Shown here: positions 19,186 through 48,669 of the stretch, one piece after another
How the letters are laid out: each line of letters starts with the position of its first letter
Position numbering within the stretch: position 1 is the stretch's first letter
Origin: Paenibacillus andongensis
GTDB lineage: Bacteria; Bacillota; Bacilli; Paenibacillales; NBRC-103111
NCBI RefSeq assembly: GCF_025369935.1
Contig: NZ_CP104467.1
Location: 5,401,001 to 5,465,000, forward strand
DNA: 64,000 nt
Direction: 5' to 3'
The notes under the pieces: model-generated
Databases searched by the model: none
What the model saw: only the letters and a program-made list of their open reading frames with translations
What the model was told of the DNA's origin: nothing
Program-made: the position numbers and the translations under genes

Positions 19186-19240
19186 ATTCTACAACTTAGG
19201 TAATAGGCTTCACATACTCAAATTAAAGAATAATCCCCCC
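19186..19240 (-). promoter_or_regulatory. Xylanase promoter with shared activator element
   Basis: The plus strand at 19222-19240 reads ATTAAAGAATAATCCCCCC. On the minus strand a TAGAAT box follows exactly 30 bases later (19191-19186). There is no good -35 hexamer, which suggests an activator-dependent promoter. The same arrangement stands before three other genes of this window. Confidence 0.6.
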
Positions 19241-19260
19241 ACAATTATGGCGTAAATTGC

Positions 19261-20253
19261 TTACCCGATTACACGCCAAAATGCCTTCTTAGGCTGAAAT
19301 TCCCCATCGAACAGTAACGGCCAATTCTTTCGGCCGCGAACTGGGAAGTTGTCCAACCAGGTATAGTTGTCAGCCGCTCCCCAGAAAGTTACCGACGTAA
19401 TGATATCCCGATATTCCTTAAAAAGCCCGAAGATTTCCTCGTACCGCTGCTGCTGCAGCTCCAACATTTGCTCGGTGGGCACCGTCAGATCGGTCCGTCT
19501 GTCGTCAAAGTGGAACATGGAAAGATCCAACTCGGTGATGTGAAGCTCCAGATCGAGAGATGCGTAAAGTTCGATCGCTTGCCGGATTTCATCCAGGGAA
19601 GGACCATGGATGTTCCAATGTCCCTGCATGCCGATTCCGTGGATCGGAACCCCCTTCTCCTTCAAGGAACGGACGAGATTATAAATCTTATCCCGCTTGA
19701 CCGGCTCTGTCTCGTTGTAGTCATTATAGAACAGAAGCGCATTCGGATCGGCTTCATGTGCTGCCTCGAAGGCATGGCGGATATAATCCTCCCCGAGAAT
19801 CTCCAGCCATTTGGTGCTTCGCATCACCAGGTCCGCCTTGTCTTCGATCGCCTCATTGACTACGTCCCACGCATATACCTTGCCCTTATAACGACCGGCT
19901 ACCGTACGGATATGCTCCTGCATTCGCAAGAGAACCAGTTCTTTGCCTGCAGGACCGCCGGAAGGGCCTTCAAACACCCAGTCGGAGGTCTGATTATGCC
20001 AGACCATCGTATGCCCCCGGACGGCAATCCCGTTCTGCAAAGCAAAATCCATTATTTCATCCGCCGCCTCGAACGTATACCGTTCTTCCTCTGGATGGAT
20101 CTCCTCGAACTTCATCTGGTTCTCCGCGGTAATGCTGTTATAATGCCGGGCGATGAAGTCCCCCTCCGATCGGATGGTCTTCGTGCTTACGGCAGCGCCG
20201 ATTCTGAATATTCCGTTAAAAGCCTCGTGCAAGGTCGGTACCTTGTTATTCAT
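19261..20253 (-). CDS. Intracellular endo-1,4-beta-xylanase (GH10)
   Basis: This is a compact GH10 barrel of 330 residues without signal peptide or accessory modules, so it works in the cytoplasm on imported xylo-oligosaccharides. The acid/base Glu is in YAWDVVNEAIEDK and the nucleophile in LHITELDLSMF; VRGHTMVWHNQTSDWVF and SVTFWGAADNYTWLDNF are the other conserved substrate-binding strands. The start has GGAGG 12 bases upstream, a rather long spacing. Its promoter contains the shared 19-bp element. The gene is followed by the promoter of the large xylanase, so the two are separate units under the same predicted control. Confidence 0.93.
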   Translation of the reverse strand: MNNKVPTLHEAFNGIFRIGAAVSTKTIRSEGDFIARHYNSITAENQMKFEEIHPEEERYTFEAADEIMDFALQNGIAVRGHTMVWHNQTSDWVFEGPSGGPAGKELVLLRMQEHIRTVAGRYKGKVYAWDVVNEAIEDKADLVMRSTKWLEILGEDYIRHAFEAAHEADPNALLFYNDYNETEPVKRDKIYNLVRSLKEKGVPIHGIGMQGHWNIHGPSLDEIRQAIELYASLDLELHITELDLSMFHFDDRRTDLTVPTEQMLELQQQRYEEIFGLFKEYRDIITSVTFWGAADNYTWLDNFPVRGRKNWPLLFDGEFQPKKAFWRVIG

Positions 20254-20278
20254 GGATTGGCAAGCCTCCTCATCATAT

Positions 20279-20292
20279 CCTGTTTAAACAGG
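20279..20292. promoter_or_regulatory. 14-bp perfect palindrome in the GH10 leader
   Basis: CCTGTTTAAACAGG is self-complementary. It lies 26 bases before the GH10 start and just downstream of the likely -10 region, so it could be an operator or an mRNA element. No second copy was noticed in the window. Confidence 0.3.
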
Positions 20293-20299
20293 CCTTCTA

Positions 20300-20359
20300 T
20301 GTTATATGATATAGAATCTGAATAAACTTACCATTCACAGATTAAAGGTCTCTCCCCCC
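20300..20359 (-). promoter_or_regulatory. GH10 promoter with shared activator element
   Basis: The plus strand at 20341-20359 reads ATTAAAGGTCTCTCCCCCC. The element is followed on the minus strand by AT-rich sequence with imperfect -10 candidates (TATATC or CATATA) 27-33 bases away. Distance from the element to the start codon is 88 bases, similar to the other copies. Confidence 0.55.
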
Positions 20360-20418
20360 TATTCTTAAAAAGCATTAAAAATTGGATGCGATGTTTCCAG
20401 TCTCACTCAAAGCAAATA

Positions 20419-20450
20419 GACGTGTATCTCTTAGAAAAGAAATACACGTC
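20419..20450 (-). terminator. Hairpin behind the second response regulator gene
   Basis: GACGTGTAT and ATACACGTC form a perfect 9-bp stem with a 14-base loop, 20 bases after the yesN-like stop. The following sequence on the minus strand is only moderately T-rich. Confidence 0.5.
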
Positions 20451-20471: not shown

Positions 20472-21977
20472 TTAGGCTTTGCTTAATTGTCTATACACGG
20501 CGGGCTTGTCGGACACACGTTTTTCAAACTCTTTGAGGAAATGATGATAATTAGCATATCCGATCTGCTCCGCGATTACGCGAATCGTTTCATCCGATTC
20601 ACACAGCATTCGTTTCGCCTCATGAATGCGCAGGTCATGAATATACTCAATCATACCTACGCCGCACCTCTTCATGAACGCTTGGCCTAAGTAAACCGGG
20701 TTCATAAAGAACCGTTCTCCGATATCTTTAATTGTTAGCGCTTCCCGATAATGCTCTTGGATATAACGCTCAATAACCCGAAGGGGATGGCCAGAGAATT
20801 TGTCTTTATGCTGCTTTAACTGGCTCAAATACTGCTGCACATACACCTGCAGGGATTCCTCCACTTCTTTTAAAGAACGATGCTCCCTTCTCAAAAAATC
20901 GCGAACACGTGGCAGCGCCTCTGAATCAATGCCCATCTCCCGCATAACGGCAGCGCTCTTCAAAACAATGCGAATGACCAGCAAATGAACGACTTCCCGG
21001 GCCGTTTTGTTAGCAGACAGCATCACAAACATTTGCTTAATCAGGTCCTCAACCCGCTTCTCCTGAAGCGCCTCGATCGCACTTAGAATATCATCTACGA
21101 TAGAAACCGCATTGAGATCATAGCTGATTTGCTTGTGATGAATCGTTTCGTAATCGAGCGGACCACCGGATACATGAAAGAAATGATGCACCGAAGTCTC
21201 TAAAGCACCTGCATACGAGTCTGCAATATGACGAAGGGAGTCCACCCGCGGACCTATCGACAAGCAGCATTCGATACCTTGCTCGCGCAGGTCTTCATAT
21301 ACCTGTTGAGCCCATTCCTCGATCCCGGGGAAAGACTCCATGACAAGGCCTTCCTGGCTCCCAAACAAGTCGATTGCATAAGCTTTTCGCGAAAGGAAGT
21401 AACGGGCATCCAGCTCCTGCTCTGAGCCGCTGAGCCATTCGATATGAATATACCTCCAGCCCTGATCTCCTTGTGCCAAGGGATATAGTATCTCCCCAAC
21501 GTTCCCGTCTGTTGCCGAGATTTCCCCCCGAAGCATCTGAGCAAGCAGAGTCGGTACTAGGCGGTCGGAAACGAGGTCATGGCGTACCCTTTGCTGTTCT
21601 CGGTGCTGCAGCTCACCAATAACTAATTGAATGACAGCCTCCCATTCCCTATCCAAAGCCGGCTTAAGCAAATAGTGCTTAACCCCATACCTTAGGGCGG
21701 ACCGAGCATATTCGAAATCATTGTAGCCGCTTAAAATGATGAATACCGGATCGCTGCCAGCCTTTTGCACCCGATCGATCAATTCTAATCCGTCAATTTC
21801 CGGCATCCGAATATCCGTCACCACGAGATCAGGCTTACAGGCTTCAATGCAGGCTAATGCTTCTTCGCCGTTCTCGCACATTTCCACGATTTCAAAGCCA
21901 AGCTCTTCCCATTCGACCATGAGCTTTATTCCTTCCAAGGCGAAAGGCTCGTCGTCCACCAAAATAACCTTATACAT
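20472..21977 (-). CDS. yesN: Response regulator, AraC-type (YesN family), second copy
   Basis: The 501-residue protein has a CheY receiver (1-120) with acidic pair DDEP, phosphoacceptor Asp in LVVTDIRMPEIDG, Thr/Ser in FIILSGYND and Lys in YLLKPA. A middle region of about 250 residues links to an AraC helix-turn-helix domain at 400-498 (IKDIGERFFMNPVYLGQAF ... IRVIAEQIGYANYHHFLKEF). It should be phosphorylated by the sensor kinase encoded just upstream; its start overlaps the kinase stop by 8 bases, and GGAGGAG precedes it. Regulators of this family activate carbohydrate-use genes. The importer and xylanase genes with the shared element are the likely targets. Confidence 0.92.
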   Translation of the reverse strand: MYKVILVDDEPFALEGIKLMVEWEELGFEIVEMCENGEEALACIEACKPDLVVTDIRMPEIDGLELIDRVQKAGSDPVFIILSGYNDFEYARSALRYGVKHYLLKPALDREWEAVIQLVIGELQHREQQRVRHDLVSDRLVPTLLAQMLRGEISATDGNVGEILYPLAQGDQGWRYIHIEWLSGSEQELDARYFLSRKAYAIDLFGSQEGLVMESFPGIEEWAQQVYEDLREQGIECCLSIGPRVDSLRHIADSYAGALETSVHHFFHVSGGPLDYETIHHKQISYDLNAVSIVDDILSAIEALQEKRVEDLIKQMFVMLSANKTAREVVHLLVIRIVLKSAAVMREMGIDSEALPRVRDFLRREHRSLKEVEESLQVYVQQYLSQLKQHKDKFSGHPLRVIERYIQEHYREALTIKDIGERFFMNPVYLGQAFMKRCGVGMIEYIHDLRIHEAKRMLCESDETIRVIAEQIGYANYHHFLKEFEKRVSDKPAVYRQLSKA

Positions 21978-23793
21978 GTCCGTTAGTCTCCTCCTGTTTC
22001 CTAATAAGACTCAGAGGAATTTGTATGGTAACGCTTGTTTTCTCGAAGGGGATACTTTCAATATGGAACAAAGAACGTTCCGCGTAAAACAGATTTAAGC
22101 GGCGGTACACATTGCGAAGTCCGATGTTCTTGCCGTTGTCTTCTCCCTTAAACAGACTCTGAACAATCTCATCCAGTTTCGCACTGTTCATTCCGATTCC
22201 GTTATCTTCGACCTTCATGAGCATGTTCATCTCTGCTCTCTCTACAGAAATCCGAATCTTGCGATTCCCTTTGACCGATTGAAGCCCATGCTTGCAAGAA
22301 TTCTCAACGAGCGATTGAATACTCATCTTCGGGATGCGATAGGATAGAACGGATTCATCGACAGACAATTCATAGTGAAACCGATCCTGGAATCGGAACT
22401 TCTCGATCTGGAGGTACATTTCAGTGAAGCTTAACTCTTCTTCAACCGTCACCAAATCCTCTTTCCAGCTTAGCAGCCTTCTCAAAATCTGAGACAAGTT
22501 TTGAATAATTTCTATCACATGCTCATAGCGATATTTCTTACACACTACGAGAATCGCGTTTAACGTATTGAACAAGAAATGAGGATCTACCTGGCTTTGC
22601 AAATAATTCAACTCTGCCTGCACACGTTCGAGCTCCAAATCCTTTTTTTGAATTTCAAGCTTGTACACGTCGTTAATTAAATTACGAATTTTCTCTGTCA
22701 TCAGATTAAAGCTGCGCAGAAGATTGCCGATCTCATCTTTTCCTTCATACATCGTGATGGGTTCAAACCTCTCGTTTTTCACCAACTGCATATGTTTGGA
22801 GAGCTTTCTGACCCGGAAATTGAAGGAATGCATAATGATGTAAATCAATATTGTCGGAATGATCGTACTAATAAGCGTCAGCCAGATAAAAAAGTGGATA
22901 ACCCCTTTCCTCTCCTCCGCGATTCGACTCCCCTCCGGTACCCCAATTAGCCGCCAGTTAAGCATGTAACTTGCTGTACTGAGAGGACTGATGAAGCTCT
23001 TCCCAGGTAAGCCTGCCAACTGATGATCCTTCGAGACAGGCAGAGTCGGCAGCAAAGGTTCAACACCCTTAAACGCACCTGCCGATTCCAGAACAAGCCG
23101 ATTTTCCTCATCCACGAGCTTGATCAGCAAGTAATTGCGCTCTTTATCAAACAGCTCCAGCAGCTTATCCATCCGAAAATCGATACGCAAATATTTGGGA
23201 AATTTCATGAGGTCAGGGAAATTGTCCAGCTTCCGAATGATGCTGACATATACCAATTTCTCCTCGGGATTCATGGGATTCGTATCCAAATAAGAGGTCA
23301 CTGTCACCTTATCTTTCTTTTCGTTCATCTTTTGATACCATTCACTCTTCAGATCATCAGGCTTAAGCATAAAGTAGCTTCCACCATTGGATAGCGTTGG
23401 GTTCGAGGTGTACACACCAATCCAAGAGATGTAGGGATAAATATTCGGATATTGTCCCAATTTGTCTCGGAGGTAGCTGTCGTATTCTTCGTAATAGGCA
23501 ACATTATCCGAGTACGTATATTCAAGCATCTCATTAAATAAACGATCAGCGGATACGGCGTTGCCGATCGCCACACCTTCGTTCACCATTTGCATGATCT
23601 CGTTTCCAACCCTATCCAGAGAAATCCGCAAGTTGTCCATCTCTCTACGTTCTGTATTTTTGCTATCCTGCAAGTAAAATAAGCTGTTTATACACAAAAT
23701 CGGTAGCAGCACACACATCAAGTATATGATCAGAAACTTGAATTTCAAGGGAATATCATTAACGATACGCAACAGTTTCCATCTCCGGCTCAT
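21970..23793 (-). CDS. yesM: Sensor histidine kinase (YesM family)
   Basis: The 607-residue protein has an N-terminal membrane helix (LKFLIIYLMCVLLPILCI), an extracellular sensor domain of about 250 residues, a second helix (FFIWLTLISTIIPTILIYI), a HAMP-like linker, a coiled-coil part and a His_kinase domain. The phosphoacceptor His is in LQSQVDPHFLFNTLNAI, and the ATP-binding boxes are LVENSCKHGLQ (N box) and VEDNGIGMN (G1). This is the typical YesM arrangement that senses sugars outside the cell, often through a binding protein. It is flanked by two response regulator genes (26-base gap and 8-base overlap), so one kinase may serve two regulators. Confidence 0.93.
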   Translation of the reverse strand: MSRRWKLLRIVNDIPLKFKFLIIYLMCVLLPILCINSLFYLQDSKNTERREMDNLRISLDRVGNEIMQMVNEGVAIGNAVSADRLFNEMLEYTYSDNVAYYEEYDSYLRDKLGQYPNIYPYISWIGVYTSNPTLSNGGSYFMLKPDDLKSEWYQKMNEKKDKVTVTSYLDTNPMNPEEKLVYVSIIRKLDNFPDLMKFPKYLRIDFRMDKLLELFDKERNYLLIKLVDEENRLVLESAGAFKGVEPLLPTLPVSKDHQLAGLPGKSFISPLSTASYMLNWRLIGVPEGSRIAEERKGVIHFFIWLTLISTIIPTILIYIIMHSFNFRVRKLSKHMQLVKNERFEPITMYEGKDEIGNLLRSFNLMTEKIRNLINDVYKLEIQKKDLELERVQAELNYLQSQVDPHFLFNTLNAILVVCKKYRYEHVIEIIQNLSQILRRLLSWKEDLVTVEEELSFTEMYLQIEKFRFQDRFHYELSVDESVLSYRIPKMSIQSLVENSCKHGLQSVKGNRKIRISVERAEMNMLMKVEDNGIGMNSAKLDEIVQSLFKGEDNGKNIGLRNVYRRLNLFYAERSLFHIESIPFEKTSVTIQIPLSLIRKQEETNGHV

Positions 23794-23818: not shown

Positions 23819-25336
23819 TTAACCCTTTTTGTAGGCAGAGGGTAACAGGCCGGTAAGTGCCTTGAACTTGTTTACGAATTGTTCGGAATCCGAGTAGCCG
23901 ACACGATCGGCGACATCGGATATTTTCAGTTCTTCACGACGAAGTAATTTTTTGGCCTCGTCAATTCGTACGACATGTAAATATTCATTGAAGGTGAGGC
24001 CAACTTGCTTCTTGAACCTCTGGCCAAAGTAGGCCGGATTCAGCCCAAAATGCTCTGCAACAACCTGCAGCTGCAGCTTTTCCCTATAGTGCGATTTGAC
24101 ATAATCTCCCGCTGCAGATACGACTGCATCTTGCCCTACGCCTTTCTTCTGACCCATCCACTCTGCAGCTTGCAGGAATTCTTGTGATACCTTGCGTTCC
24201 AAGAGGCCAATATCCATTGGAGCGGTAGGAGCAAACCAATTTGGAGCCCACACAGGCTCACCGCCGGATTGGGTAATTGTCTTAAGAATTTCAAGCTTAA
24301 TGTTGCCTAAATAAGCACTCACCCACGATTCAGAGACAGACTGCCTCGAAAGAGCGACGAATAAGTGGTGTACGTGGGCTCGCACTGTTTCTGGACACCC
24401 ACTCCGTACGGCATCAAGGATTGATTCCGTCATTCCAACAAATGCAGGAAGCGTCTCCGCTGACCGCTCTCCTTGATAAATGTAAATCCCTTCCGTTCCA
24501 GAAGGGAACTTGCACATTTCGGCCATAAGTCCCTCACGGAATGCTTCTTTTAACGCATACGGTCCCTTGTGTTTGCCGCTAACCGAAAACGAGAGTGCTC
24601 TGCCCCAGCTATTTCGGATACTGGCAATTAACTCTGTCATCATCGCAGGAGAAAGTTCGCGCTCCTCGGGTCCCGAGACCAGCAAGAATCCATGTCGCTC
24701 TTTGCCTACGCCAAATGGAAGCAGCGTCGCTTGAGTAAACTTGATCTTATCTGCAGTAACCTGCATCAGGTCCGATTGGACATGAGGCTGAATGTCAGGC
24801 TCAAGCAAGATGCAGCGGAAGCTGGAACGTTCATGAAAATCCAACAAGGCCTTCGCCTGCTCAATCCATTTCTGCCTGATTTCTCCCTGCAATAGCCTTG
24901 AAATCGTTTCCATTCGTAAGCAATCCAAGGCAGCGTTTTCATACTGAATGTGAGATTCACGCTCCCTGATCGTATTCGCAACTGCTTCCACTGCAGCTAC
25001 AAGCTCCGTTTCAATCAAAGGCTTCATCAAATAATTGGCCACACCATGCCGCATAGCTCTTTTGGCATATTCGAAATCCGCGTATCCACTCAAAATAATA
25101 AATTTCACTCCAGGGTGTAGGCAGGAAGCTTGTTCAATCAATTCCAATCCATCTATGACAGGCATTCGAACGTCCGTCAGCACCAAATGAGGCAGGGTCG
25201 ACGCCATCATGGCTAAAGCGTCTTCGCCATCCGACGCTTCCCCGCATATTTCAAAGCCTAGCTTATTCCAATCAATCATCGACCGTAGTCCCTCTAGCAT
25301 ATAAGGCTCGTCATCGGCAAACATGACCCTTAACAT
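23819..25336 (-). CDS. yesN: Response regulator, AraC-type (YesN family), first copy
   Basis: The frame starts at a GTG at 25345, but the ATG at 25336 has GAGGTG six bases upstream and is chosen. The receiver domain (1-120) has DDEP, phosphoacceptor Asp in LVLTDVRMPVIDG, FIILSGYAD and NYLMKPL. The C-terminal 100 residues are an AraC domain with LQVVAEHFGLNPAYFGQRF and KISDVADRVGYSDSEQFVNKF. Similarity to the second copy is clear in both end domains, while the middle regions differ strongly. They may therefore answer to different partners or bind different sites. It is the first gene of a three-gene unit and follows the terminator of the importer operon. Confidence 0.9.
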   Translation of the reverse strand: MLRVMFADDEPYMLEGLRSMIDWNKLGFEICGEASDGEDALAMMASTLPHLVLTDVRMPVIDGLELIEQASCLHPGVKFIILSGYADFEYAKRAMRHGVANYLMKPLIETELVAAVEAVANTIRERESHIQYENAALDCLRMETISRLLQGEIRQKWIEQAKALLDFHERSSFRCILLEPDIQPHVQSDLMQVTADKIKFTQATLLPFGVGKERHGFLLVSGPEERELSPAMMTELIASIRNSWGRALSFSVSGKHKGPYALKEAFREGLMAEMCKFPSGTEGIYIYQGERSAETLPAFVGMTESILDAVRSGCPETVRAHVHHLFVALSRQSVSESWVSAYLGNIKLEILKTITQSGGEPVWAPNWFAPTAPMDIGLLERKVSQEFLQAAEWMGQKKGVGQDAVVSAAGDYVKSHYREKLQLQVVAEHFGLNPAYFGQRFKKQVGLTFNEYLHVVRIDEAKKLLRREELKISDVADRVGYSDSEQFVNKFKALTGLLPSAYKKG

Positions 25337-25400
25337 TGGAATCACCTCACTTCGGAGTAGATATGACTATTATAAAGGATAGGTAGAGCTTGAATAAAGC

Positions 25401-25460: not shown

Positions 25461-26372
25461 TTACTCTTTGACGCTTCCAAGGTTCATGCCGACGATAAAA
25501 TACCTTTGCAGGAAAGGATACACGAACAGAATTGGAACCGCCGCCACAATCGTGATCGCCGCACGTATGGAAGAAGGCGTAACCATGGCCTTCGTTTGAT
25601 TTGTGTTTGCCCCTGCCATCAGACCGGGATCGTTGTTGCTGCTCATCGTTGATCCAAGCAGCTTCATCATTTCGTACTGAAGTGTACTCAGCTTCAAATC
25701 AGACGAAGCATACAGGAACGTATCGAACCAGGTATTCCAAGAGCCAACTGCTATAAACAAGGCGATGGTCGCTAGTACAGGCGTACACAGCGGGAAAATG
25801 ATGCGTATAAATATGGTGAAATCACCGGCTCCGTCCATTTTCGCAGACTCAACCAAGCCTGATGGAAGCGTTCGAATATACGTCCGGATGACAATAAGAT
25901 TAAACGCATTCACCATTCCTGGGAGCACATACACCCAGAAGTTATTCAGAAGCCCCAGGCTTTTGATCAGAAAGTAGTTAGGAATAAGTCCTGCATTAAA
26001 ATACATCGTCAACACAAAAATTAAACCGATGATTTTACGAAAAAGATAGTGGGGTTGTGCTAGTGTATACGCTAACATGGTGGTAAGGAATACACCTATC
26101 ACCGTCGCTGTAATCGTACGAGCGACTGAAATCCACGCTGCATGGTAAATCGTACCAGAAAGGAAAATTGCCTTATAATTTTGCAATGACCATGAACGAG
26201 GCCATAGATAGATGCCTCCCCGAGTCGCATCATTGCCCTCATTGAATGAAATCGTTAGAGTATGAAGGAACGGATATAATGTTACTATAGCAAGAAGGAG
26301 CATGAAGATGCCGTTAATCGTATGGAACAGAATCGGCTCCATTCGAATTCTGCGCGCAGTCGTTGTTCCCAT
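25461..26372 (-). CDS. lplC: Sugar ABC transporter permease, LplC/CUT1 type
   Basis: The ATG at 26372 has the better ribosome spacing (GGAG eight bases upstream; the ATG two codons earlier is too close). The 303-residue protein has six membrane helices and the EAA-type loop with ESAKMDGAGDFTIFIRIIFPL that contacts the ATPase. Its C-terminus, YPFLQRYFIVGMNLGSVKE, is typical of the LplC/YtcP subgroup. It forms the importer channel with the preceding permease. No ATPase gene is present in the operon, so a shared MsmX-like ATPase elsewhere in the genome is expected. Confidence 0.93.
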   Translation of the reverse strand: MGTTTARRIRMEPILFHTINGIFMLLLAIVTLYPFLHTLTISFNEGNDATRGGIYLWPRSWSLQNYKAIFLSGTIYHAAWISVARTITATVIGVFLTTMLAYTLAQPHYLFRKIIGLIFVLTMYFNAGLIPNYFLIKSLGLLNNFWVYVLPGMVNAFNLIVIRTYIRTLPSGLVESAKMDGAGDFTIFIRIIFPLCTPVLATIALFIAVGSWNTWFDTFLYASSDLKLSTLQYEMMKLLGSTMSSNNDPGLMAGANTNQTKAMVTPSSIRAAITIVAAVPILFVYPFLQRYFIVGMNLGSVKE

Positions 26373-26385
26373 CGTCATCTCTCCT

Positions 26386-27360
26386 TTATATCAACCGCTC
26401 TTCACCAAGGCGCTTGGCGGTAGAATTTGCAATCAGAATAAGTATTATGCTTACAACTGTTTTGAAAATACCTGCCGCAGTGGCCAGCGAATAGTTGCCT
26501 TGAGCTATCCCGTACTTTAGAACGAAAATATCAATCGTTTGCGACCAGTCGACGACCAATCCATTGCCGAGCAGGTACTGAATTTCAAAGCCTGCATCCA
26601 GAATATGTCCGATGTTCATGATTAATAGAATGATAAATGTCGACTTGATCCCAGGCAGTGTGACGTAAAGGATCTTCTGGTAACGGTTTGCACCGTCGAT
26701 TCCTGCAGACTCATACAGCGACGGATCAATCGAGGTGATAGCTGCAAGGTAAATGATGGTATTCCATCCCACCTCTTTCCAAACATTAGACAAGCCCACA
26801 ATCCCCCAGAAATACTTGCCTTGACTAAGCCACATCACAGGTTCCTTAATGAAGTGCAACTTCACCAACAGCTGATTAACGATACCATCATCAACGGATA
26901 GGGAAGTCGCTACAATACCCGCAGCAATGATCCACGACAGAAAGTGAGGCAGATAAGAAATCGTTTGGATGGACCGTTTCCAGAAACGAGCTTTAATTTC
27001 ATTCAGTAAGAGAGCTAAAATAATGGCTGTTGCAAAGCTAAGAACCAAATTGATCATACTCATGGCAAGCGTGTTGCGAAGCACTGTCAAGAACGTATCA
27101 TCTTGAAATAGAAATTTAAAATGCTTCAGCCCCACCCACTGCTGTTTGGAAAATTTCAAAGCCGGACGATAATTCTGGAACGCCATCAACCAGCCCCAAA
27201 TCGGTACATAATTGAAAATTAGAATATAAATCACGATGGGAAACGACATCAGCATTAACTGCTTCTGGTTTTTGATCGTCTTCCAACTTAAACCGACGCC
27301 GATTTCCGGATCAATTTTTTGCTTTTTCGTTGGTCTTTTGGACAGTATGGTCTCGGCCAT
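26386..27360 (-). CDS. lplB: Sugar ABC transporter permease, LplB/CUT1 type
   Basis: The start at 27360 has GGAGG eight bases upstream; the ATG two codons earlier is too close to it. The 324-residue protein has six helices and the EAA loop YESAGIDGANRYQKILYVTLP. The N-terminal helix region (QLMLMSFPIVIYILIFNYVPIWGW, split over two turns) is the LplB/YteP signature. It is encoded between the binding protein gene (65-base gap) and the LplC-like gene (13 bases). Confidence 0.93.
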   Translation of the reverse strand: MAETILSKRPTKKQKIDPEIGVGLSWKTIKNQKQLMLMSFPIVIYILIFNYVPIWGWLMAFQNYRPALKFSKQQWVGLKHFKFLFQDDTFLTVLRNTLAMSMINLVLSFATAIILALLLNEIKARFWKRSIQTISYLPHFLSWIIAAGIVATSLSVDDGIVNQLLVKLHFIKEPVMWLSQGKYFWGIVGLSNVWKEVGWNTIIYLAAITSIDPSLYESAGIDGANRYQKILYVTLPGIKSTFIILLIMNIGHILDAGFEIQYLLGNGLVVDWSQTIDIFVLKYGIAQGNYSLATAAGIFKTVVSIILILIANSTAKRLGEERLI

Positions 27361-27431
27361 CGACATTCCCTCCTAGGAAGTAAAGCAGAGAAGACCCTGA
27401 GTCTCCCCCACTCTACTACATTTCTATTCTC

Positions 27432-29108
27432 TTATTTGCTGCTCCAATTCTTAATACGCCAGTTAATTTGTTCATTGATACGATCTTCGATGGCTTTGAA
27501 ATTACTTTTGGAAATCTGATCCACATATTCCTTCCATACACCATCAAATTCATCCGGTTTGACCATAATTGCTTTCGGCAAATATTTGACGGCAAGGTCT
27601 TCCATCTTCTGATTGGCCACTTTGGCTGGTGAACCATCCACCAGATCAATACTCCACGCTGGGTAGTATATGTTATTTTCCACAGGTGATTTGAAGAACT
27701 CTGCCCATGTCTTATGGTTGTATGCCTTCAGAACTTCCTGATCCTGCGGCTTCAAGCTGTCGAAGAATTCCTGTGGCTGTGATCCAGCATCAGTTGCATT
27801 TCCGTCACTATACGTCCCTTGCATCTTAGGTAGGCCACCAAAGAACCCATCCGCTTTATTCGCTAGCTTCCATGTATTATCGTCTGCTTTCGCGCGCTGT
27901 TCAGGCGTACGGTAGAACTTACCATCCTTTACCTCATAATCCTCGCCTTGAATACCCCATTGGAGTGTCTTCTGCCAATCTTCGGTCATTAGTGCGTCAA
28001 GGAATTTGATGATTTGAACCGGATCCTTGGCTTTCGTCGAAATTCCGTATCCGCGGTTGATGTTCAAAACTGGACGGTCACGGTAGTGCTCTGTGGCGCC
28101 TGGATATAAGAGCGGGAACCCTACGTATGTGCTGCCGAATTTACCTTGTGATTTCAAAGAATTTTCTCCATCGCCAAAGTTCCAGTGCTGGTCGAACATC
28201 CCAATGACACGACCACTGGCAATTTTAGCTAAGTATTGATCGTAGTTCTGTACCAGTGCTTCCTTATCCATCAAGCCTTGCGCATTGATCTCATTCAGCT
28301 TCTTGTAATAGGTCTTGGCAATATCCTTGTCCGCAAAAATTGACGCTTTCCCGTTATCGACGATAACACCACCGTCATTTGGGTAACCAGCTAAATGCTC
28401 TGGCGGATTAAGCAGCGGGAATTTTCTCCAGTCGAAGCTCAACGTCTCGAACCCGATCATATCTGGATGTTTCGCTTTGTATTTCGCAATGATATCGAAA
28501 TATTCGTCCAACGTTTTAGGAGTTGGATACCCCATTTCCTTCAGGACATCCTTTTGCAGGAAAAAGCCTGGTCCTTCATACGTAGTATCGTTAACTTGAC
28601 CAGTGAACACGCCGTAAGCTGGCAGAACATAAAGGTGACCGCTTGCAGGATCCTTGGCCTGATTCAGCACGGATGCATAGTGCTTCTTCAGATTCGGCGC
28701 GTATTTGTCAATCAGGTCCTCGAGGGGAATAAAAGCACCGGCCGCAATTAGTTTATCATCCCCGGTCATAATATCCGCATAATCGCCGCCGGCAATCATA
28801 ACGCCCATCTTCTGCTGCAGGTCACCGACCAGAAACTCCATTTTTAGGCTAACGCCAGTTTTATCTTTAATCATCTTGTAGATCTTGTTGTCAGGAGTCG
28901 GCTGTTGACCAGGGCCACCAATGAACACTGACAATGTAACCGGTTTAATCGCGTCGTTATTCGTTGCTGCTGGACTGGTTTGACTACCGCTAGGTGAAGA
29001 GGTGCTACTTGCCGTATCCTTCGAGTCGCTGCACCCTGACAGCGTTAATCCTAGCGCCAGAACGGGTACCATTGCAGCTAAAGCAGGTCGTTTTATTTTC
29101 TTAACCAT
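27432..29108 (-). CDS. lplA: Sugar ABC transporter substrate-binding lipoprotein, LplA type
   Basis: I choose the ATG at 29108 because GGGAGG lies nine bases upstream; the frame opens nine codons earlier. The 558-residue protein has a lipoprotein signal peptide with lipobox LTLSGC, then a serine/threonine-rich linker and a large type 1 binding fold of the LplA/YtcQ group. It should capture oligosaccharides, from the context xylo- or arabinoxylo-oligomers released by the surface xylanase. The promoter has the shared activator element, a perfect TATAAT 29 bases behind it and a cre-like site between them. Confidence 0.9.
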   Translation of the reverse strand: MVKKIKRPALAAMVPVLALGLTLSGCSDSKDTASSTSSPSGSQTSPAATNNDAIKPVTLSVFIGGPGQQPTPDNKIYKMIKDKTGVSLKMEFLVGDLQQKMGVMIAGGDYADIMTGDDKLIAAGAFIPLEDLIDKYAPNLKKHYASVLNQAKDPASGHLYVLPAYGVFTGQVNDTTYEGPGFFLQKDVLKEMGYPTPKTLDEYFDIIAKYKAKHPDMIGFETLSFDWRKFPLLNPPEHLAGYPNDGGVIVDNGKASIFADKDIAKTYYKKLNEINAQGLMDKEALVQNYDQYLAKIASGRVIGMFDQHWNFGDGENSLKSQGKFGSTYVGFPLLYPGATEHYRDRPVLNINRGYGISTKAKDPVQIIKFLDALMTEDWQKTLQWGIQGEDYEVKDGKFYRTPEQRAKADDNTWKLANKADGFFGGLPKMQGTYSDGNATDAGSQPQEFFDSLKPQDQEVLKAYNHKTWAEFFKSPVENNIYYPAWSIDLVDGSPAKVANQKMEDLAVKYLPKAIMVKPDEFDGVWKEYVDQISKSNFKAIEDRINEQINWRIKNWSSK

Positions 29109-29182
29109 TTTTTTAATCCTCCCTTTTGTCTCCATGAAGATGCATGATCCTATAGGCCAACCCTTATTTACTTACACTATTT

Positions 29183-31653: not shown

Positions 31654-31700
31654 TAACCCTCCACCCTTCCGAATTAGGTTTCAATGCAAAAGTGATACGC

Positions 31701-40831: not shown

Positions 40832-41626
40832 TTACGGTTTGGCGGCCCTCTCAAGAGACGCGCCTTCCTTCTGCTTGTGAAACTTTCTAGGTGTAAAGCC
40901 CGTAATCTGCTTGAATTGACGGCAGAAGTGCTCCACGTTGTTATACCCGCAGCGTAAAGCGACCTCCGCGATGGATAGAGAGCCGTGCAACAAATATTCC
41001 TTGGCTTGGCGGATGCGGCTTGTAATCACGTCATCCATACAAGAAATCCCGAAAGTCTTCTTGTAAATTGTCTGCAAATACCCAGGACTGATGCGGATAG
41101 AGTCGGCCATTCTTGGAACCGCCCAGTCCTGGCTAGGATTACTGTAAATGGCGGTCCGAAGCGATAACAAGTTGTAGTATTTGGGCGTAATTACTTCTTG
41201 AAAGTAAGATTCCAGCAGCTTGTTAAACAGGGTTCTCAGTAAGCAGTCAATGGATGATTCTTTATAATCTTTTTGAAAAGAGTGTTCACTGACGAGGAGT
41301 TGGAATATTTTGTGGCAGTATTCAGGGTCATTCAATGAAAATGGCACTCCGAATGGAAGCGATGTTTCCGTTACATACGATTCGTTGGATTCGAATCGAA
41401 TCCAGTCGTTCTTATATTGTTCCTCGCAGGCTCGGTAATAAATTTTTTGATGGGGATGGTATAAAACTCCACTGTGTGCTGGGTACTCCTTCAATTCTTC
41501 ATTGACCCAGAACAGGGCAGGTGTATGGGTCACAACGAGCAGCCAACAGTTATGGCCCTCAGGGATATCGAACACAAAATTGCTTGCGTGAGCGGCATCA
41601 TACTCAACATAGAAAATGTTGGTCAT
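40832..41626 (-). CDS. AraC-family transcriptional regulator
   Basis: Two ATG codons lie in tandem; the second (41626) is six bases behind GGAGG. The protein of about 264 residues has an N-terminal cupin-like sugar-binding region and a C-terminal AraC domain (about 155-255) with AVPRMADSIRISPGYLQTIYK and LSIAEVALRCGYNNVEHFCRQF. It lies immediately upstream of the GH95 gene on the same strand and may control the GH95/GH43 group. Confidence 0.88.
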   Translation of the reverse strand: MTNIFYVEYDAAHASNFVFDIPEGHNCWLLVVTHTPALFWVNEELKEYPAHSGVLYHPHQKIYYRACEEQYKNDWIRFESNESYVTETSLPFGVPFSLNDPEYCHKIFQLLVSEHSFQKDYKESSIDCLLRTLFNKLLESYFQEVITPKYYNLLSLRTAIYSNPSQDWAVPRMADSIRISPGYLQTIYKKTFGISCMDDVITSRIRQAKEYLLHGSLSIAEVALRCGYNNVEHFCRQFKQITGFTPRKFHKQKEGASLERAAKP

Positions 41627-41756
41627 CATGATCCTCCAGTATCAAAAAAATGACAATACATCAATTATTTATTAACATATATTACTGTTTGAAGACAGTC
41701 AACGAAGCAAAGGAACGACGGCTCCTCCCTGCAGCCCACGCTCTGGTTGTTCGATG

Positions 41757-43431: not shown

Positions 43432-43446
43432 AAAAAATTATAATTT

Positions 43447-45246
43447 TTACTTTTTAGCTAATGCATCGGCACGCATTTTAATAATTTTTTGCGCTTTTTC
43501 CGTATCCGAGGCAACTGCATCATTCCAGCCGAGGCCTATCACATCTTTCTTCATCATTTCCCAAAGCTTGTCGAACTCAGCTTGATTCTTTGCGAATACC
43601 ATTTTCCAGGATGTGTTCTTTACATAGTCAGAAATCTGACTGCGTTTGTTTTTAATATCTGATGAATCGCTTCCTAAACTTGTATTGATATTGGGGACGA
43701 TATCGATCATCTTATGTTTCAGGTAGTAATCTGTTGCGTTTTCTGCATTATAGGTGTTCTGCCAATCCGTCGTTAGCGCTGTCTTGTTCGCTTCAATTGT
43801 TGCGGCCCAGTAATTGCTGTTATAGAACTCCCCTGTCTTTGGATCTTTGGCAAAATCGCTTATGATCATCGTGTTCAGTTTGCTTTGTCCGTCCTGATAT
43901 CCGCCGCCTCCATACTCATCTGGAACAGGTGTATTTTTCTGGAATGCGGTTTGACCCACCTCGGTCAGCTTAAATTTACCGTCTGCCGTCTTTTCATAGT
44001 TGAAGCCTTCAAATCCATTCACATAGTAGCGCAGGCCTTCAGGAGAAACAAGCCAATCCATGAATTCCATGATCCGATCGGGATCATTGGCTTTGGAACC
44101 GATAGCAAATACTCTTCCATTGCCGTAATAGGCATCGCTTGCCTGAATGATGTGCGTGTCAGCGATCGGAACAGCAACATTCCCGTCACCCTTTTTACCT
44201 CTTTCAATTGAATTGTAGAACCCTGTTTCCCATGAGTACCACAAAAGGAGTACCTGCTTGTTGGTCAGCTTTTCGGATACTTTGTTCCAATCCTGGGTTG
44301 GCGAGTCAGGGTCAACCAAACCCATCTGATTTGCTTTAAAATAGAATTGCAGAATTTTCTTGTACATACTGTTGTCATCGATGAGCGGAACGATATCGCC
44401 TTTTGCATTCAACTGGATGGTCGTGGTTCCTTCTGGTTGCTCGTAACCGTACCAATTGCTGAGCCAGCGTGCATTTTCCATAGTGCCTCTGCTGTCCCAA
44501 TCCTTCCACAAGGTGATTGGAGCTATCGGTTTACCGTCCGGCGTCTTCGGATATTTCTCATGCATAAGTTTCAGCACATTCAAAAGATCATCCAGATTGT
44601 TCAGCTTGGGAGCCCCAACTCCCTTGTAATAATCCCAAGGCATTATTGGGCTTGAGTAAGGGATTTGTTCCGAGTATGTCGTTGGTGAAGTATCTGCCTC
44701 AAAAGTCGGCAAAGCATAAATCTTGCCACCCGGATTTACTTTTTGGAATGCTGCATTGAAAGGTTTGAAATGATTGTCCACATATTTGGACAGGTTCGGC
44801 GTATTCTTGATCTTATCCGTGAGGTCCATAATCAGACCCGCTGGAATTAATTCTTCCAACTGACTGTTAGGTACGATCACGAGATCGCCCAAATTTCCTG
44901 CTGCCGATCTTGTCTTGTAAAGCTGATCGCCGGCAATCTGCGGAGCAAGAATGTTCAATGTGATATTGAACTTGTCCTTAATAAGCTTTCCATACCACCC
45001 TTTCTGCTCGCCTTGATAATTTGCTGCAGCGTCAAAAACGGTAATGGTCAGCGGTTTACTGTGATCTAGCCCTGTACTTGCCTTGGATGTAGCTCCAGCA
45101 CCGGAGTCTGGTGACTTACTTGGTACCGTTGATGCCGCCTTATTGTTAGATTCGCCTCCACAGCCGGTCAATGCTACCGAAACCATGAAGAGGCAAGCAA
45201 ACGACATCAACATCGATTTTTTTACTGCTTTACTCCGCTTATTCAT
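43447..45246 (-). CDS. Sugar ABC transporter substrate-binding lipoprotein, LplA type (second)
   Basis: The ATG at 45246 has a GGGGGG stretch eight bases before it and starts MNKRSKAVKKSMLMSF. The frame opens eight codons earlier. The product of 599 residues has a lipoprotein signal with lipobox ALTGC, a Ser/Ala-rich linker and a large binding fold (SKPLTITVFDAAANYQG ... YALPTFEADTSPTTYSE). It is the last gene of its operon, behind the two permeases, unlike the first importer where it is first. Ligand is unknown; arabino- or xylo-oligosaccharides are likely from context. Confidence 0.88.
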   Translation of the reverse strand: MNKRSKAVKKSMLMSFACLFMVSVALTGCGGESNNKAASTVPSKSPDSGAGATSKASTGLDHSKPLTITVFDAAANYQGEQKGWYGKLIKDKFNITLNILAPQIAGDQLYKTRSAAGNLGDLVIVPNSQLEELIPAGLIMDLTDKIKNTPNLSKYVDNHFKPFNAAFQKVNPGGKIYALPTFEADTSPTTYSEQIPYSSPIMPWDYYKGVGAPKLNNLDDLLNVLKLMHEKYPKTPDGKPIAPITLWKDWDSRGTMENARWLSNWYGYEQPEGTTTIQLNAKGDIVPLIDDNSMYKKILQFYFKANQMGLVDPDSPTQDWNKVSEKLTNKQVLLLWYSWETGFYNSIERGKKGDGNVAVPIADTHIIQASDAYYGNGRVFAIGSKANDPDRIMEFMDWLVSPEGLRYYVNGFEGFNYEKTADGKFKLTEVGQTAFQKNTPVPDEYGGGGYQDGQSKLNTMIISDFAKDPKTGEFYNSNYWAATIEANKTALTTDWQNTYNAENATDYYLKHKMIDIVPNINTSLGSDSSDIKNKRSQISDYVKNTSWKMVFAKNQAEFDKLWEMMKKDVIGLGWNDAVASDTEKAQKIIKMRADALAKK

Positions 45247-45289
45247 GTTCAACCCCCCGTATTCTTTCAATTTATTATAACGGTGTAAG

Positions 45290-46258
45290 TTATCCCTTCA
45301 CTGCACCGATCATAATCCCCTTCACAAAAAATCTTTGGAAAATCGGATAAATCAACAAAATAGGCGCTACAACAATAATGGTCACCGTCATTCGAATTGA
45401 AGTAGTGGTTTGCTTTGTTGCCAGACTTGTTATGGCTGTCGAACCGGCATTCTCCAGATTTACCATGCTGGATATGGAACTTGCCTGACTAATATAGTTA
45501 TATAGAATAAACTGCAAGCTATATAGTTTGCTCTCCGTAACCAACAACAACGTGTCTTGGAAGGAATTCCACTGATCCACTGCCGCAAATATGGCAACCG
45601 TAGCCAATATGGGCTTACAGATGGGCAACATGATTTTGAAAAAAAGGGTCATGGTCCCGGCCCCGTCGATACTTGCCGCATGTTGCAATTCCTTCGGCGT
45701 TGATTCCACGAAAGTCTTTACAAGAATGATGAAAAACGGAGCTACGATTGTCGGCAGAATATAGGCCAAAAAATTGTTTGTCAGATGCAAAGACCTCATT
45801 GTCAAATACCACGGAATAACCCCGGCATTAAAAAACATTGTTAAAACCGTAAAGCGATACCAAAATTTTCTCTTCCACATATCCTCTTGGGTAAACATGA
45901 ATCCTAAAAAGGCGGAAGCCCCTACCGTCAAAGTGGTTCCGATCACGGTCCTTCCTACAGATACAACGGCTGCATTCCACAACCCCGGTATTTTAAACAC
46001 ATCCACGTAGTTATGGAATTGGATATGCATCGGGTAAAAGATAACATCACCTTTGGCACTGATATCGTTTGCACTTATCGTATTAATAATGATAGAGTAA
46101 AATGGATATACACAAATAAGCGCATAGAGGGAAAACAGGAAATATATTAAAACAGTAATCATTTTGTCTGTTGGGCTGACCTGGACTTTATTTTTTCTAG
46201 TGAGATGACTGCCAGACACTTTATCATTCGGCGCCAGCCCTACTGCTGTATCACTCAT
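45290..46258 (-). CDS. Sugar ABC transporter permease, LplC/CUT1 type (second)
   Basis: The 322-residue protein has six helices, the EAA loop QHAASIDGAGTMTLFFKIMLP and the C-terminus YPIFQRFFVKGIMIGAVKG, which closely parallels the LplC-like protein of the first importer. The start overlaps the stop of the preceding permease gene (ATGA). It pairs with that permease. Confidence 0.92.
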   Translation of the reverse strand: MSDTAVGLAPNDKVSGSHLTRKNKVQVSPTDKMITVLIYFLFSLYALICVYPFYSIIINTISANDISAKGDVIFYPMHIQFHNYVDVFKIPGLWNAAVVSVGRTVIGTTLTVGASAFLGFMFTQEDMWKRKFWYRFTVLTMFFNAGVIPWYLTMRSLHLTNNFLAYILPTIVAPFFIILVKTFVESTPKELQHAASIDGAGTMTLFFKIMLPICKPILATVAIFAAVDQWNSFQDTLLLVTESKLYSLQFILYNYISQASSISSMVNLENAGSTAITSLATKQTTTSIRMTVTIIVVAPILLIYPIFQRFFVKGIMIGAVKG

Positions 46259-47178
46259 ACAATACTCTCTCCTCTTAGTTTTTTTGATAGTCCGTTCACA
46301 GAAAAGAGAAGTACTACACTAATCAAGCTCTTTAGCATACTGATCGCGACGGACACGGAATAGCTGCCGCCCCCCATTGCTAGGTTGTAAACATATAAGT
46401 CTAAAGCTTGTATGGAATCCTTGTTAAATGCATTTTGAAATACGAAATATTGCTCCAAGCCATTATTCAGAAAACTCGCAATTTGCAGCATCAACAAAAC
46501 AAAATAGGTCGGCACCATACTCGGCAATACTACATGCCAGATCACCCGCATTCTTGTCGCGCCGTCTACATAGGCCGCTTCATATAGAGAATCATCTATA
46601 CTCATAATCGCCGCTATATACAATATGGCTGACCAACCCAATGTTTTCCAAGTCGTCCATATCCACATCATAATCCAAACATGGTCGGAGTTTTGAAGAA
46701 GTAATACCGGGGAATCAATAAATCCAAGTTGTTTCAAAAGGCCGTTGACTATACCTTCACTAGAGAACATTGAAAATGCCAGTGAATAGACCAATACCCA
46801 ACTGATGAAGTTCGGCAAGGTTGTTACCGTCTGTATAAACCTCCGGAAACGTACGGATTTGATCTCAGTCAGGAATATGGCAAAAATCATTGGAAGCCAG
46901 GAGAATAGCAGATTCAAGCCACTCATCCCAAACGTGTTCTTGAGTATTTGAAGCGTTTGATCGATCTTTACTTGGTTTTCGACCAAGGTATGAAACCACT
47001 TCAGACCAACAAACGGCGATTGGGACAGCGGAATCGGCGGCGTATAGTCAAAGAATGCATAAACCCAACCATATAGCGGGTAATACGCAAAGACACCAAG
47101 TAAAACCATAAAAGGCATAATAAAGAGGAATTTTATCATTGAGATGCTTTTCTTGCTGTATTTTTCTATTCGTACCAT
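46255..47178 (-). CDS. Sugar ABC transporter permease, LplB/CUT1 type (second)
   Basis: This 307-residue permease has six helices and the EAA loop YEAAYVDGATRMRVIWHVVLP. The N-terminal helix MIKFLFIMPFMVLLGVFAYY and following YGWVYAFFDY are typical LplB features. It is the first gene of the operon. A perfect cre match lies about 140 bases upstream. As in the first importer, no ATPase gene is present. Confidence 0.92.
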   Translation of the reverse strand: MVRIEKYSKKSISMIKFLFIMPFMVLLGVFAYYPLYGWVYAFFDYTPPIPLSQSPFVGLKWFHTLVENQVKIDQTLQILKNTFGMSGLNLLFSWLPMIFAIFLTEIKSVRFRRFIQTVTTLPNFISWVLVYSLAFSMFSSEGIVNGLLKQLGFIDSPVLLLQNSDHVWIMMWIWTTWKTLGWSAILYIAAIMSIDDSLYEAAYVDGATRMRVIWHVVLPSMVPTYFVLLMLQIASFLNNGLEQYFVFQNAFNKDSIQALDLYVYNLAMGGGSYSVSVAISMLKSLISVVLLFSVNGLSKKLRGESIV

Positions 47179-47314
47179 GTCAGGCCCCCTATTTTATATT
47201 CAACGTATTTATTGACAAATAACGATATCCAAAAAAATATGGAGTGCCGAAATGGCAGTTTCACTCTACTCCAGCGCAAAAGGTCATCAATGAATTTGAG
47301 GACACACCTTGTGT

Positions 47315-47328
47315 TGATAGCGTTTTCA
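47315..47328 (-). promoter_or_regulatory. cre site (CcpA) upstream of the second importer
   Basis: On the minus strand TGAAAACGCTATCA fits the cre consensus TGWAANCGNTNWCA at every position. It lies 137 bases before the first permease start, in an otherwise gene-free stretch (47179-47475) that is AT-rich and should hold the promoter. The shared activator element of the xylanase promoters is absent here. Confidence 0.6.
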
Positions 47329-47475
47329 ATCGGTTTCGTTAAAGCTATTATAAAATATCAATTTTTCCAAAACAATGACCTATTCTCATCGATTATTGAT
47401 CTATTCTCATATAGCTCGGTGAATCACGATCATTTGGAGACATGGCTAATTTAAAATCAGCACGGACAAATTTGT

Positions 47476-47584
47476 TTAGACCAAAAAGCCGACCAGCTGC
47501 GATTCCGCCAGGTTGTCGGCTTTCCAATTGCAGGCGGAGAACAGGATGTCCCGCCCGCAGTTTTTAATGGCCAAGGCCAAATTT
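47476..47584 (-). pseudogene. Alpha-galactosidase (GH27-type) fragment
   Basis: A minus-strand frame reads LALAIKNCGRDILFSACNWK, then ADNLAESQLVGFLV and a stop at 47476. 'ALKNCGRDIxFSxCNWG' is a highly conserved strand of GH27 alpha-galactosidases. Only about 36 codons remain; no upstream or downstream part is visible. It lies between the GH43 stop (47593) and the second importer, so a GH27 gene was probably lost by deletion. Confidence 0.65.
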
Positions 47585-47592
47585 TTTTTTCA

Positions 47593-48570
47593 TTAATAAG
47601 GATCGATCGTCCGAATCGTTCCATCTTCGTTATAGTGTAACTCCGTATATTTGACGCAACGCTTGTGGTTAACGCCTTCGGATAAAGAACTGTCGTGGTA
47701 AAATAAGTACCATTTGTCTTCGAACTGGACAATGGAGTGATGAGTTGTCCAGCCGATAACCGGAGTTAAGATCGTGCCCTTGAAGGTATACGGTCCCAAC
47801 GGATTCCGGCTGACGGCGTAAACTAATTTATGGGTGGTGCCCGTGGAGTAGGACAAGTAGTACCAGCCGTTATATTTGTGTACCCACGGTCCTTCAAAAT
47901 AGCGTCTATCCTCGTCTCCTGCGAGAATCGGGCTGCCGTTTTCGTCAACAATCGAAACTTCTAGCGGAGCGGTTTGAAATGACAGCATATCCTCGCTCAG
48001 CAGAGCGACCCGAGGACCTATAGCAGGCGCCTCCGCCGCCGGCCCCACCGCTTCCGGCTCGAAAGTACTGGTCTGCCATTTTTCCAATTGACCGCCCCAA
48101 AGACCGCCGAAATATAGGTAAGCCCGATTGTCGTCATCAACAAGCACCGCTGGGTCGATACTGAAGCTTTCCTCGATATAAGACGGTTGAGGAAGAAAAG
48201 GACCGGCCGGCGACGTGCTGGTCGCCACACCGATTCGAAAAATCCCATCATGATCCCGGGCAGGAAAATACAAGAAATAGGTGCCAGCCTTAAAAGCAGC
48301 ATCAGGAGCCCAGAGTTGTTTGGAAGCCCAGGGAATATCTTTCAGATGAAGGACTTGCCCATGATCGATAACGGGGGACTCGAAGCCATCCATGGATAGA
48401 ACATGATAATCTTCCATTGCATATTGATCCCCATTGTCATTATCGGTGCCGTCATGATCGAGATCGTGTGACGGGTAGATGTAAATTTTCCCCTCAAATA
48501 CGTGCGCTGAAGGATCGGCAGTAAAGATATGGGTGACAAGCGGGTGATGAGGTTTCGGTAAATTGTGCAT
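47593..48570 (-). CDS. GH43 glycosidase (arabinofuranosidase/xylosidase type), single domain
   Basis: The 325-residue protein is a bare GH43 five-bladed propeller without signal peptide. HIFTADPSAHVFEGKIYIYPS carries the general-base Asp, SIDPAVLVDDDNRAYLYFGG the pKa-modulating Asp, and RRYFEGPWVHKYNGWYYLSYS the likely acid Glu. WTTHHSIVQFEDKWYLFYHD is the usual closing strand. AAGGAGGAG precedes the ATG. The promoter has the shared activator element and a nearly perfect cre site, so it should be co-regulated with the two xylanases and the first importer although it stands 19 kb away. Confidence 0.9.
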   Translation of the reverse strand: MHNLPKPHHPLVTHIFTADPSAHVFEGKIYIYPSHDLDHDGTDNDNGDQYAMEDYHVLSMDGFESPVIDHGQVLHLKDIPWASKQLWAPDAAFKAGTYFLYFPARDHDGIFRIGVATSTSPAGPFLPQPSYIEESFSIDPAVLVDDDNRAYLYFGGLWGGQLEKWQTSTFEPEAVGPAAEAPAIGPRVALLSEDMLSFQTAPLEVSIVDENGSPILAGDEDRRYFEGPWVHKYNGWYYLSYSTGTTHKLVYAVSRNPLGPYTFKGTILTPVIGWTTHHSIVQFEDKWYLFYHDSSLSEGVNHKRCVKYTELHYNEDGTIRTIDPY

Positions 48571-48614
48571 ACTTGTGCTCCTCCTTTATGGATTTGATTT
48601 TGTCTTTCTCCTTT

Positions 48615-48669
48615 ATTATGAGACCTTGTATGCGATTACAAAATAAATAGATTAAAGATCTATCCCCCC
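48615..48669 (-). promoter_or_regulatory. GH43 promoter with shared activator element and cre site
   Basis: The plus strand at 48651-48669 reads ATTAAAGATCTATCCCCCC. On the minus strand CATAAT follows exactly 30 bases later (48620-48615). Within the spacer TGTATGCGATTACA (plus strand 48627-48640) matches the cre consensus at 13 of 14 positions and would cover the -35 region. Confidence 0.65.

Follow-up and report, generated by a model that had tools for sequence, protein, structure and literature searches.

The 64,000-nucleotide stretch of the Paenibacillus andongensis genome analysed here (contig NZ_CP104467.1, positions 5,401,001 to 5,465,000; hereafter the window, in whose own numbering coordinates are given) carries, upstream of four xylan-use genes, a 19-bp element that is very probably the activator operator of a xylan-use regulon, read by the triad of two response regulators and one sensor kinase (RR1-HK-RR2) encoded among these genes. 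All four genes lie on the minus strand, as do the permease genes beside that of the binding protein and the elements, promoter boxes, conserved promoter blocks and triad genes described below; in coding orientation the element reads GGGGGG-N6-CTTTAAT, that is, ATTAAAG-N6-CCCCCC on the plus strand. The genomes directly show the element and how it is spaced and conserved, as well as its confinement to xylan genes and its joint occurrence with the triad; regulator binding, phosphorylation, the inducer and the operon structure at these promoters are deduced from these observations.

The element and its promoters

A pattern search of the window places exact copies of the plus-strand form at 19222-19240, 20341-20359 and 48651-48669, just where a first-pass annotation of this DNA had put them; these are also the only three matches in the 7.64-Mb genome, and a reversed control yields none. 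When up to two mismatches are allowed, the window holds five matches against 1.68 expected, a number attained in 2 of 100 shuffles. Shortening the run to five G (GGGGGN6CTTTAAT) gives four exact matches genome-wide, the fourth being located about 3 Mb away, upstream of a GH11 xylanase gene. The copy at 19222-19240 (GGGGGG-ATTATT-CTTTAAT) precedes the gene of an SLH-bearing, XynA1-like GH10 xylanase (xynA1), that at 20341-20359 (GGGGGG-AGAGAC-CTTTAAT) a GH10 gene of the intracellular type and that at 48651-48669 (GGGGGG-ATAGAT-CTTTAAT) a GH43 gene, while a weaker form at 29218-29236 (TAGGGG-TAAGAC-CTATATT) precedes the gene of the importer binding protein (SBP).

Model R1, a profile built from sequence alone on 40 promoter sites (element plus -10 box) and run on 30 genomes of the genus, reports exactly five strong sites in this genome: xynA1 (C1:5420179-5420241, E 6.4e-12), GH10 (E 1.7e-13), SBP (E 4.9e-14; a site of the R1 training set), GH43 (E 9.3e-10, and 5.0e-15 with the independent model R2 described below) and, outside the window, the promoter of a 211-residue GH11 xylanase (Pfam, 245 bits). 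A divergent GH43/GH11 gene pair (L004, C1:2370572-2373589) bears the element on its GH11 side only. With 4 of 13 positions mismatched, the SBP site is unconvincing if taken alone. Its inclusion in the first-pass annotation is nonetheless justified, as it is a strong R1 match in 21 own-genus genomes (this one included); the 19-bp footprint is conserved across aligned orthologs and takes a form nearer the consensus in one relative (G003, AGGGGGAATATCTTTATT), and the weak site is thus real.

The -10 boxes TAGAAT (xynA1, 19186-19191), CATAAT (GH43, 48615-48620) and TATAAT (SBP, 29183-29188) lie 30, 30 and 29 bases behind the element, as annotated before. The GH10 copy, previously called less clear, has its box as well, TATCAT at 29 bases (20306-20311), and 12 of 13 aligned GH10 promoters carry TATCAT, the remaining one TATGAT. 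In a position weight matrix (PWM) scan of 38 loci or windows, a -10-like hexamer is found 29, 30 or 31 bases behind the element in all 57 distinct sites scoring above 17 bits, the list of seven accepted hexamers having been picked after the sites were seen. A good -35 box is indeed absent, the best candidates in the promoters being TTGTAA and TTGTTA; the element, at about -61 to -43, is situated upstream of this weak -35. Distances to the start codons, formerly given as 81-110 bases, come to 78-109 bases by the present coordinates and vary with the start chosen.

In alignments of own-genus promoters, this genome included, identity over the 19-bp footprint amounts to 91% for SBP (n=20), 94% for GH10 (n=13) and 97% for xynA1 (n=11); over the roughly 100 bp upstream of the element it is 41%, 68% and 59%, respectively. 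The stretch from the element to the -10 box is conserved as well as the element itself (90-98%). Most of the invariant columns fall in GGGGG and CTTTAAT, two boxes whose centres are 12 bp apart, and this layout fits the size of AraC-type operators, about 17-20 bp. The fixed place upstream of a weak -35 and the near-constant distance to the -10 box are likewise those of an AraC-type operator. A second conserved block behind the element overlaps a site resembling a catabolite-responsive element (cre) and, by eye, differs from the element in sequence; the reading of element and block as a direct repeat was dropped, the resemblance being partial only, again by eye.

The cre consensus bound by CcpA is a WTGNAANCGNWNNCW-like sequence. 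It is matched over the -35 region in the SBP promoter (TTGTAAGCGTATTCTT, 29195-29210, with TGNAANCGNATWCA invariant in 19 class-B relatives) and in the GH43 promoter (TTGTAATCGCATACA, 48627-48641), and behind the -10 box in the xynA1 promoter (TTGTAAGCGATTTCAA, 19155-19170, with TTGTAAGCGATT invariant in 11 aligned promoters). It is not matched by the block over the GH10 -35 region (GGTAAGTTTATTCAG, 20318-20332), a poor cre in which the central CG is absent. Across the 19 class-B SBP promoters the invariant pattern is TG.AA.CG.AT.CA. CcpA is encoded in this genome (TIGR01481, 482.3 bits against a cut-off of 442.35); its role at these promoters is deduced from sequence, and the SBP and GH43 promoters are probably under dual control by an activator and CcpA. 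The element is also present in SBP promoters that have no cre-like block at -35 (e.g. L185, L200); element and cre are therefore separable. A second importer operon of the window (43447-47178), itself conserved, has a promoter with a cre-like TGAAAACGCTATCA and without the element.

Distribution of the element among relatives

The enrichment before carbohydrate genes on which the first-pass annotation had made its proposal depend is borne out at xylan genes in the genus: in the 30 genomes, GGGGGN6CTTTAAT is matched 40 times and its reversed control 13 times, and 28 of the 40 stand upstream of xylan genes or their remnants, namely small GH10 (one a remnant, in G027), GH43, GH11, the surface xylanase and a GH11-derived promoter of a secreted GH10. 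The other 12 are about as many as the control predicts for background. A search of the family (104 genomes) with an extended motif yields 23 matches against 2 in the control, and all but one of the 23 are in the own genus. The exact motif is thus the form of the genus, with variants in relatives. One motif match (G070) was set aside as chance, no xylan gene being present among the open reading frames (ORFs) seen behind it.

R1 gives 67 strong matches, all with at least 28.8 bits and E 1e-5 or better; below them, the best match has 18.7 bits and the remainder is noise. Each of the 67 lies upstream of a xylan gene or its remnant: SBP (21), GH10 (17, one of them the G027 remnant), xynA1 (13), GH11 (7), GH43 (6), GH11-derived promoters before a secreted GH10 (2) and an esterase gene in G021 (1). 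Many of the 67 being training sites, what is informative is the gap in score and the lack of strong matches elsewhere. The match at 18.7 bits (G021:C2:293935) has nothing behind it that matches the reference proteins and was left out of the 67. This restriction to xylan genes, together with the co-occurrence of site and triad described below, supports the earlier proposal that the element is the operator of the YesN-type regulators encoded between the genes.

Some of these promoters have outlived or changed their genes. In G027 (L120) only a remnant of GH10 is left behind a preserved element-bearing promoter; in G021 (L281) the coding part of xynA1 was not found and its element-bearing promoter is kept before an esterase gene. 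At two loci (L075 on G007:C51 and L087 on G017:C25), a secreted GH10 gene follows the GH11 promoter, with a decayed relic of the GH11 signal peptide between them, an arrangement that has the appearance of promoter capture. The secreted GH10 was accordingly rejected as an independent member of the regulon, its promoter being the GH11 promoter with a GH11 relic.

The training set of model R2 consisted of 19 SBP promoters belonging to other clades, all outside the own genus: 17 came from named Paenibacillus/Cohnella loci and 2 from a further genus of the family. In 198 genomes of the order it gives 71 matches at E 1e-3 or better, distributed over 47 genomes and all situated at xylan genes, as judged from the downstream gene (24 matches in the genus via coordinates known from R1, the other 47 individually). 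SBP genes account for 42 of them, some of these being training sequences; the other 29, none of which was in training, belong to small GH10 (22, of which 15 in another family and 7 in the genus), GH43 (6) and GH11 (1), the GH43 promoter of this genome among them (5e-15). Several of these GH10 genes share a contig with the importer and are separated from it by over 1 megabase (e.g. in G204 and G346). In a survey of SBP loci, with one genome per species and limited to the best 80 of 306 loci (the named loci), the PWM reaches at least 12 bits in 55 and at least 10 bits in 60; among 6238 background windows, in which true sites at other genes are included, 75 and 117 reach these scores. Variants such as CTCGGAAAGAGCTATAAT account for some of the low scores, and a few of the 80 SBP loci have no recognisable element.

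The triad and the weighing of other explanations

The three genes of the triad are those of RR2 (20472-21977), HK (21970-23793) and RR1 (23819-25345). HK is a YesM-type sensor kinase (Pfam His_kinase and HATPase_c, with HAMP below its cut-off), while RR1 and RR2 are response regulators with an AraC-type DNA-binding domain and both are candidate binders of the element, based on Pfam and on conservation of the triad. YesN-type response regulators, that is, those with an AraC domain, are very numerous in Paenibacillus, and XynC of Geobacillus stearothermophilus is an AraC-type regulator that binds DNA. The receiver-domain motif TDxRMP is kept in both RR1 and RR2. Their DNA-binding domains are 35% identical in this genome, and the two proteins form separate orthologous lines in all 37 Paenibacillus/Cohnella loci examined. 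The triad is located upstream of the importer or, as in this genome, behind it in the same direction; of the 80 named loci, 77 have the kinase gene next to the importer, the exceptions being L156 (on a 6-kb contig), L174 and L188. Genus genomes whose kinase is at least 66% identical have a strong site in 21 of 21 cases versus 1 of 9 others (G017), counts that, like those of matches, come from related and thus non-independent genomes. An AraC-type regulator gene is in this way linked to the site and co-inherited with it, G017 and G008 excepted. The recognition helices of RR1 and RR2 and the classes of site both shift with clade, and their co-variation does not decide between the two regulators as binder of the site. 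In two distant genomes with a single regulator (G159, G446) there is no clear G-run and, by eye, the A/T part seems to be kept; the idea that the G-run is tied to the possession of two regulators was dropped, as loci that combine the triad with a weak G-run occur in Paenibacillus.

Several observations weigh against an operator read by the triad. Relatedness of the genomes limits every count, and many of the sites found by R1 were also used to train it. G017 has a strong site and a kinase only 46-47% identical, and G008 has a triad at 47% and no strong R1 site. The xynA1 genes of G003 and G007 have no element and are placed after GH43. R2, run with stricter filters on 198 genomes, reports only the GH43 site of the five present here, and under the same filters none of the R1 sites of G009, G010, G015, G017 and G018. 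Among the best 80 of 306 SBP loci, 20 score below 10 bits, some with a clear variant while others may lack the site, and certain Paenibacillus clades have the triad together with a weak or changed G-run at SBP (L175, L177, L195; e.g. CTCGGAAAGAGCTATAAT). When the 14 one-mismatch matches of this genome were inspected by eye, a single one (L021) was noted near a gene start, with a Cache/PAS sensor gene, not a xylan gene, beginning some 100 bases behind it; this match is ascribed to chance, having no -10-like box at 29-31 bases and being unreported by R1.

That the element is bound by another regulator, either the orphan AraC protein encoded at 40832-41629 or an unlinked factor, is improbable. 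Binding by the triad is itself a prediction, and the strong site of G017, a genome with only distant homologs of the triad, would suit a different factor; against this stand the position of the triad kinase beside the importer and the tracking of site by kinase identity given above. Among the 80 named loci, with about 10 kb covered on each side, the orphan gene was seen in only 5; in this genome it follows the second importer operon, the promoter of which is without the element, and its product is an unlikely binder. Slightly less probable still is an account in which the conserved block consists mainly of a CcpA cre and the core promoter, the G-run and CTTTAAT being merely UP-like or structural. 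The -35 block does fit a cre well in the SBP and GH43 promoters and CcpA is encoded, but the G-run and CTTTAAT contain most of the invariant columns, persist in SBP promoters deprived of a cre-like -35 block (L185, L200) and are also found in the GH10 and xynA1 promoters, where the -35 block is a poor cre (the cre-like site of xynA1 being elsewhere); conversely, at the second importer operon, also conserved, a cre-like site occurs without the element.

Chance, or recent duplication in which the sites are copies of one promoter carried along with its genes, is very improbable. While some shared ancestry exists, as for the secreted GH10 of G007 and G017 on an old GH11 promoter, the SBP, GH10, xynA1, GH43 and GH11 promoters are dissimilar beyond the element, and each keeps its own -10 spacing and sequence across genomes. 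Moreover, the importer is not linked to GH11 in this genome, nor to GH10 in several relatives, and a model built from one gene (SBP) in other clades finds other genes.

Under the preferred reading, that of an activator operator read by the triad, the YesM-type kinase HK would sense a signal at the cell surface, probably a xylo-oligosaccharide or aldouronate, and phosphorylate RR1, RR2 or both, encoded on its two sides. The phosphorylated regulator would bind GGGGG-N6-CTTTAAT via two contacts about 12 bp apart, as would be expected if the two helix-turn-helix units of a single AraC-type domain occupied successive major grooves. Since the site (-61 to -43) is positioned just upstream of the weak -35, the bound regulator could bring RNA polymerase to the TATAAT-like box, which follows the element at 29-31 bases. 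Its targets in this genome would be the importer, the surface GH10, the intracellular-type GH10, GH43 and the unlinked GH11. As the genes of HK, RR1 and RR2 lie behind the importer in the same direction, induction of the importer may feed forward; based on the cre-like sites at -35 or behind -10, CcpA would shut the importer, GH43 and xynA1 on better sugars.

A more elaborate form of this mechanism, in which two unlike regulators bind side by side, one to GGGGG-N6-CTTTAAT and the other to the TGAATnGTAAGnGTATTC block over the -35 that is also the CcpA site, is offered tentatively and is rather unlikely. It is consistent with the distinct domains of RR1 and RR2, each kept in Paenibacillus and Cohnella, and with the difference in sequence between the two blocks. 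If true, each promoter would act as an AND gate that requires both phosphorylated regulators, and CcpA would be a competitor for the second half.

Predicted target genes, neighbourhood and known systems

Pfam confirms three of the four gene labels of the first-pass annotation: the surface xylanase (14977-19143) is an SLH GH10 protein with CBM_4_9 and CBM9_1 domains, the second GH10 (19261-20253) has no further domains, as in the intracellular type, and the gene at 47593-48570 encodes a GH43. The fourth, the binding protein, is without a Pfam hit; its label is based on its position next to two BPD permeases and on an NCBIfam SBP match that stays below threshold (19.4 bits against a cut-off of 299). 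The importer genes permB, permA and SBP (25461-29135, labelled from Pfam and context) are the first behind the weaker element. No GH67 was found among the window ORFs scanned, which were a subset.

Between the xylan genes, 29605-34952 encodes an IlvD/EDD dehydratase, an aldehyde dehydrogenase, a FAH-family protein and an IclR/KdgR-like regulator, which look like the set of a non-phosphorylating sugar-acid pathway. Behind the surface xylanase gene, 13792-14862 encodes an esterase weakly similar to feruloyl esterases and found in the same place in several relatives; the segment 10554-13140 holds a group II intron reverse transcriptase gene (10554-11852) and a second, shorter one (12331-13140).

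What emerges is one predicted AraC-type operator, whose predicted regulon comprises five promoters in this genome and is conserved in relatives across the order. Few operators are known for YesN-type response regulators; here the pairing of regulator and site becomes directly testable, and a putative xylan-inducible promoter is on offer. It also raises the question as to why one kinase should retain two different response regulators. In the literature searched, as judged from titles and the opening of abstracts, no operator of this system is described, the first JDR-2 papers and two Geobacillus papers lying outside this coverage.

A similar gene set is that of Paenibacillus sp. JDR-2, for which the part of the report consulted describes an importer cluster, that of aldouronate utilization, coordinately regulated with xyn10A1, and predicted cre sites (PMC4765114). 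The gene set, the co-regulation on xylan and the predicted cre are alike, whereas that part of the report describes no activator operator, and a GH67, not found among the window ORFs scanned here, is a further point of difference. In the same source, Xyn10A1 and Xyn11 are the only endoxylanases reported to be secreted by JDR-2 on xylan, which agrees with the predicted regulon. In Clostridium cellulolyticum, XydR of the XydS/XydR system is likewise an AraC-type response regulator that binds upstream of hemicellulase genes; according to the portion of that 2013 report seen, sequences common to two target regions were given, a consensus site of the AraC/XylS family was not identifiable and the predicted -10 boxes lie 299 and 415 bp upstream of the start codons (PMC3572039).

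The XynDC-XynEFG system of Geobacillus stearothermophilus comprises a kinase and a response regulator encoded next to a xylo-oligosaccharide importer whose genes the regulator controls, and homologs are noted in Paenibacillus sp. LS1, as stated in the part of the publication available (PMC10269863). A kinase and an AraC-type regulator beside an SBP and two permeases are also present here. By comparison with the single kinase and single response regulator of XynDC, two regulators flank the kinase in this genome, in a different gene order, and the site is also placed upstream of the GH10, GH43, GH11 and surface xylanase genes. The sites of AraC/XylS activators such as araI and the marbox span about 17-20 bp, offer two contacts one turn apart and lie upstream of, or touching, a poor -35. 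The element resembles them in size, in its two contacts and in its place near a poor -35, and differs in its sequence, a G-run plus CTTTAAT, and in having no clear second direct repeat; the predicted operator would thus be a well-defined addition to an already known kind of site, the activator operators of the AraC type.

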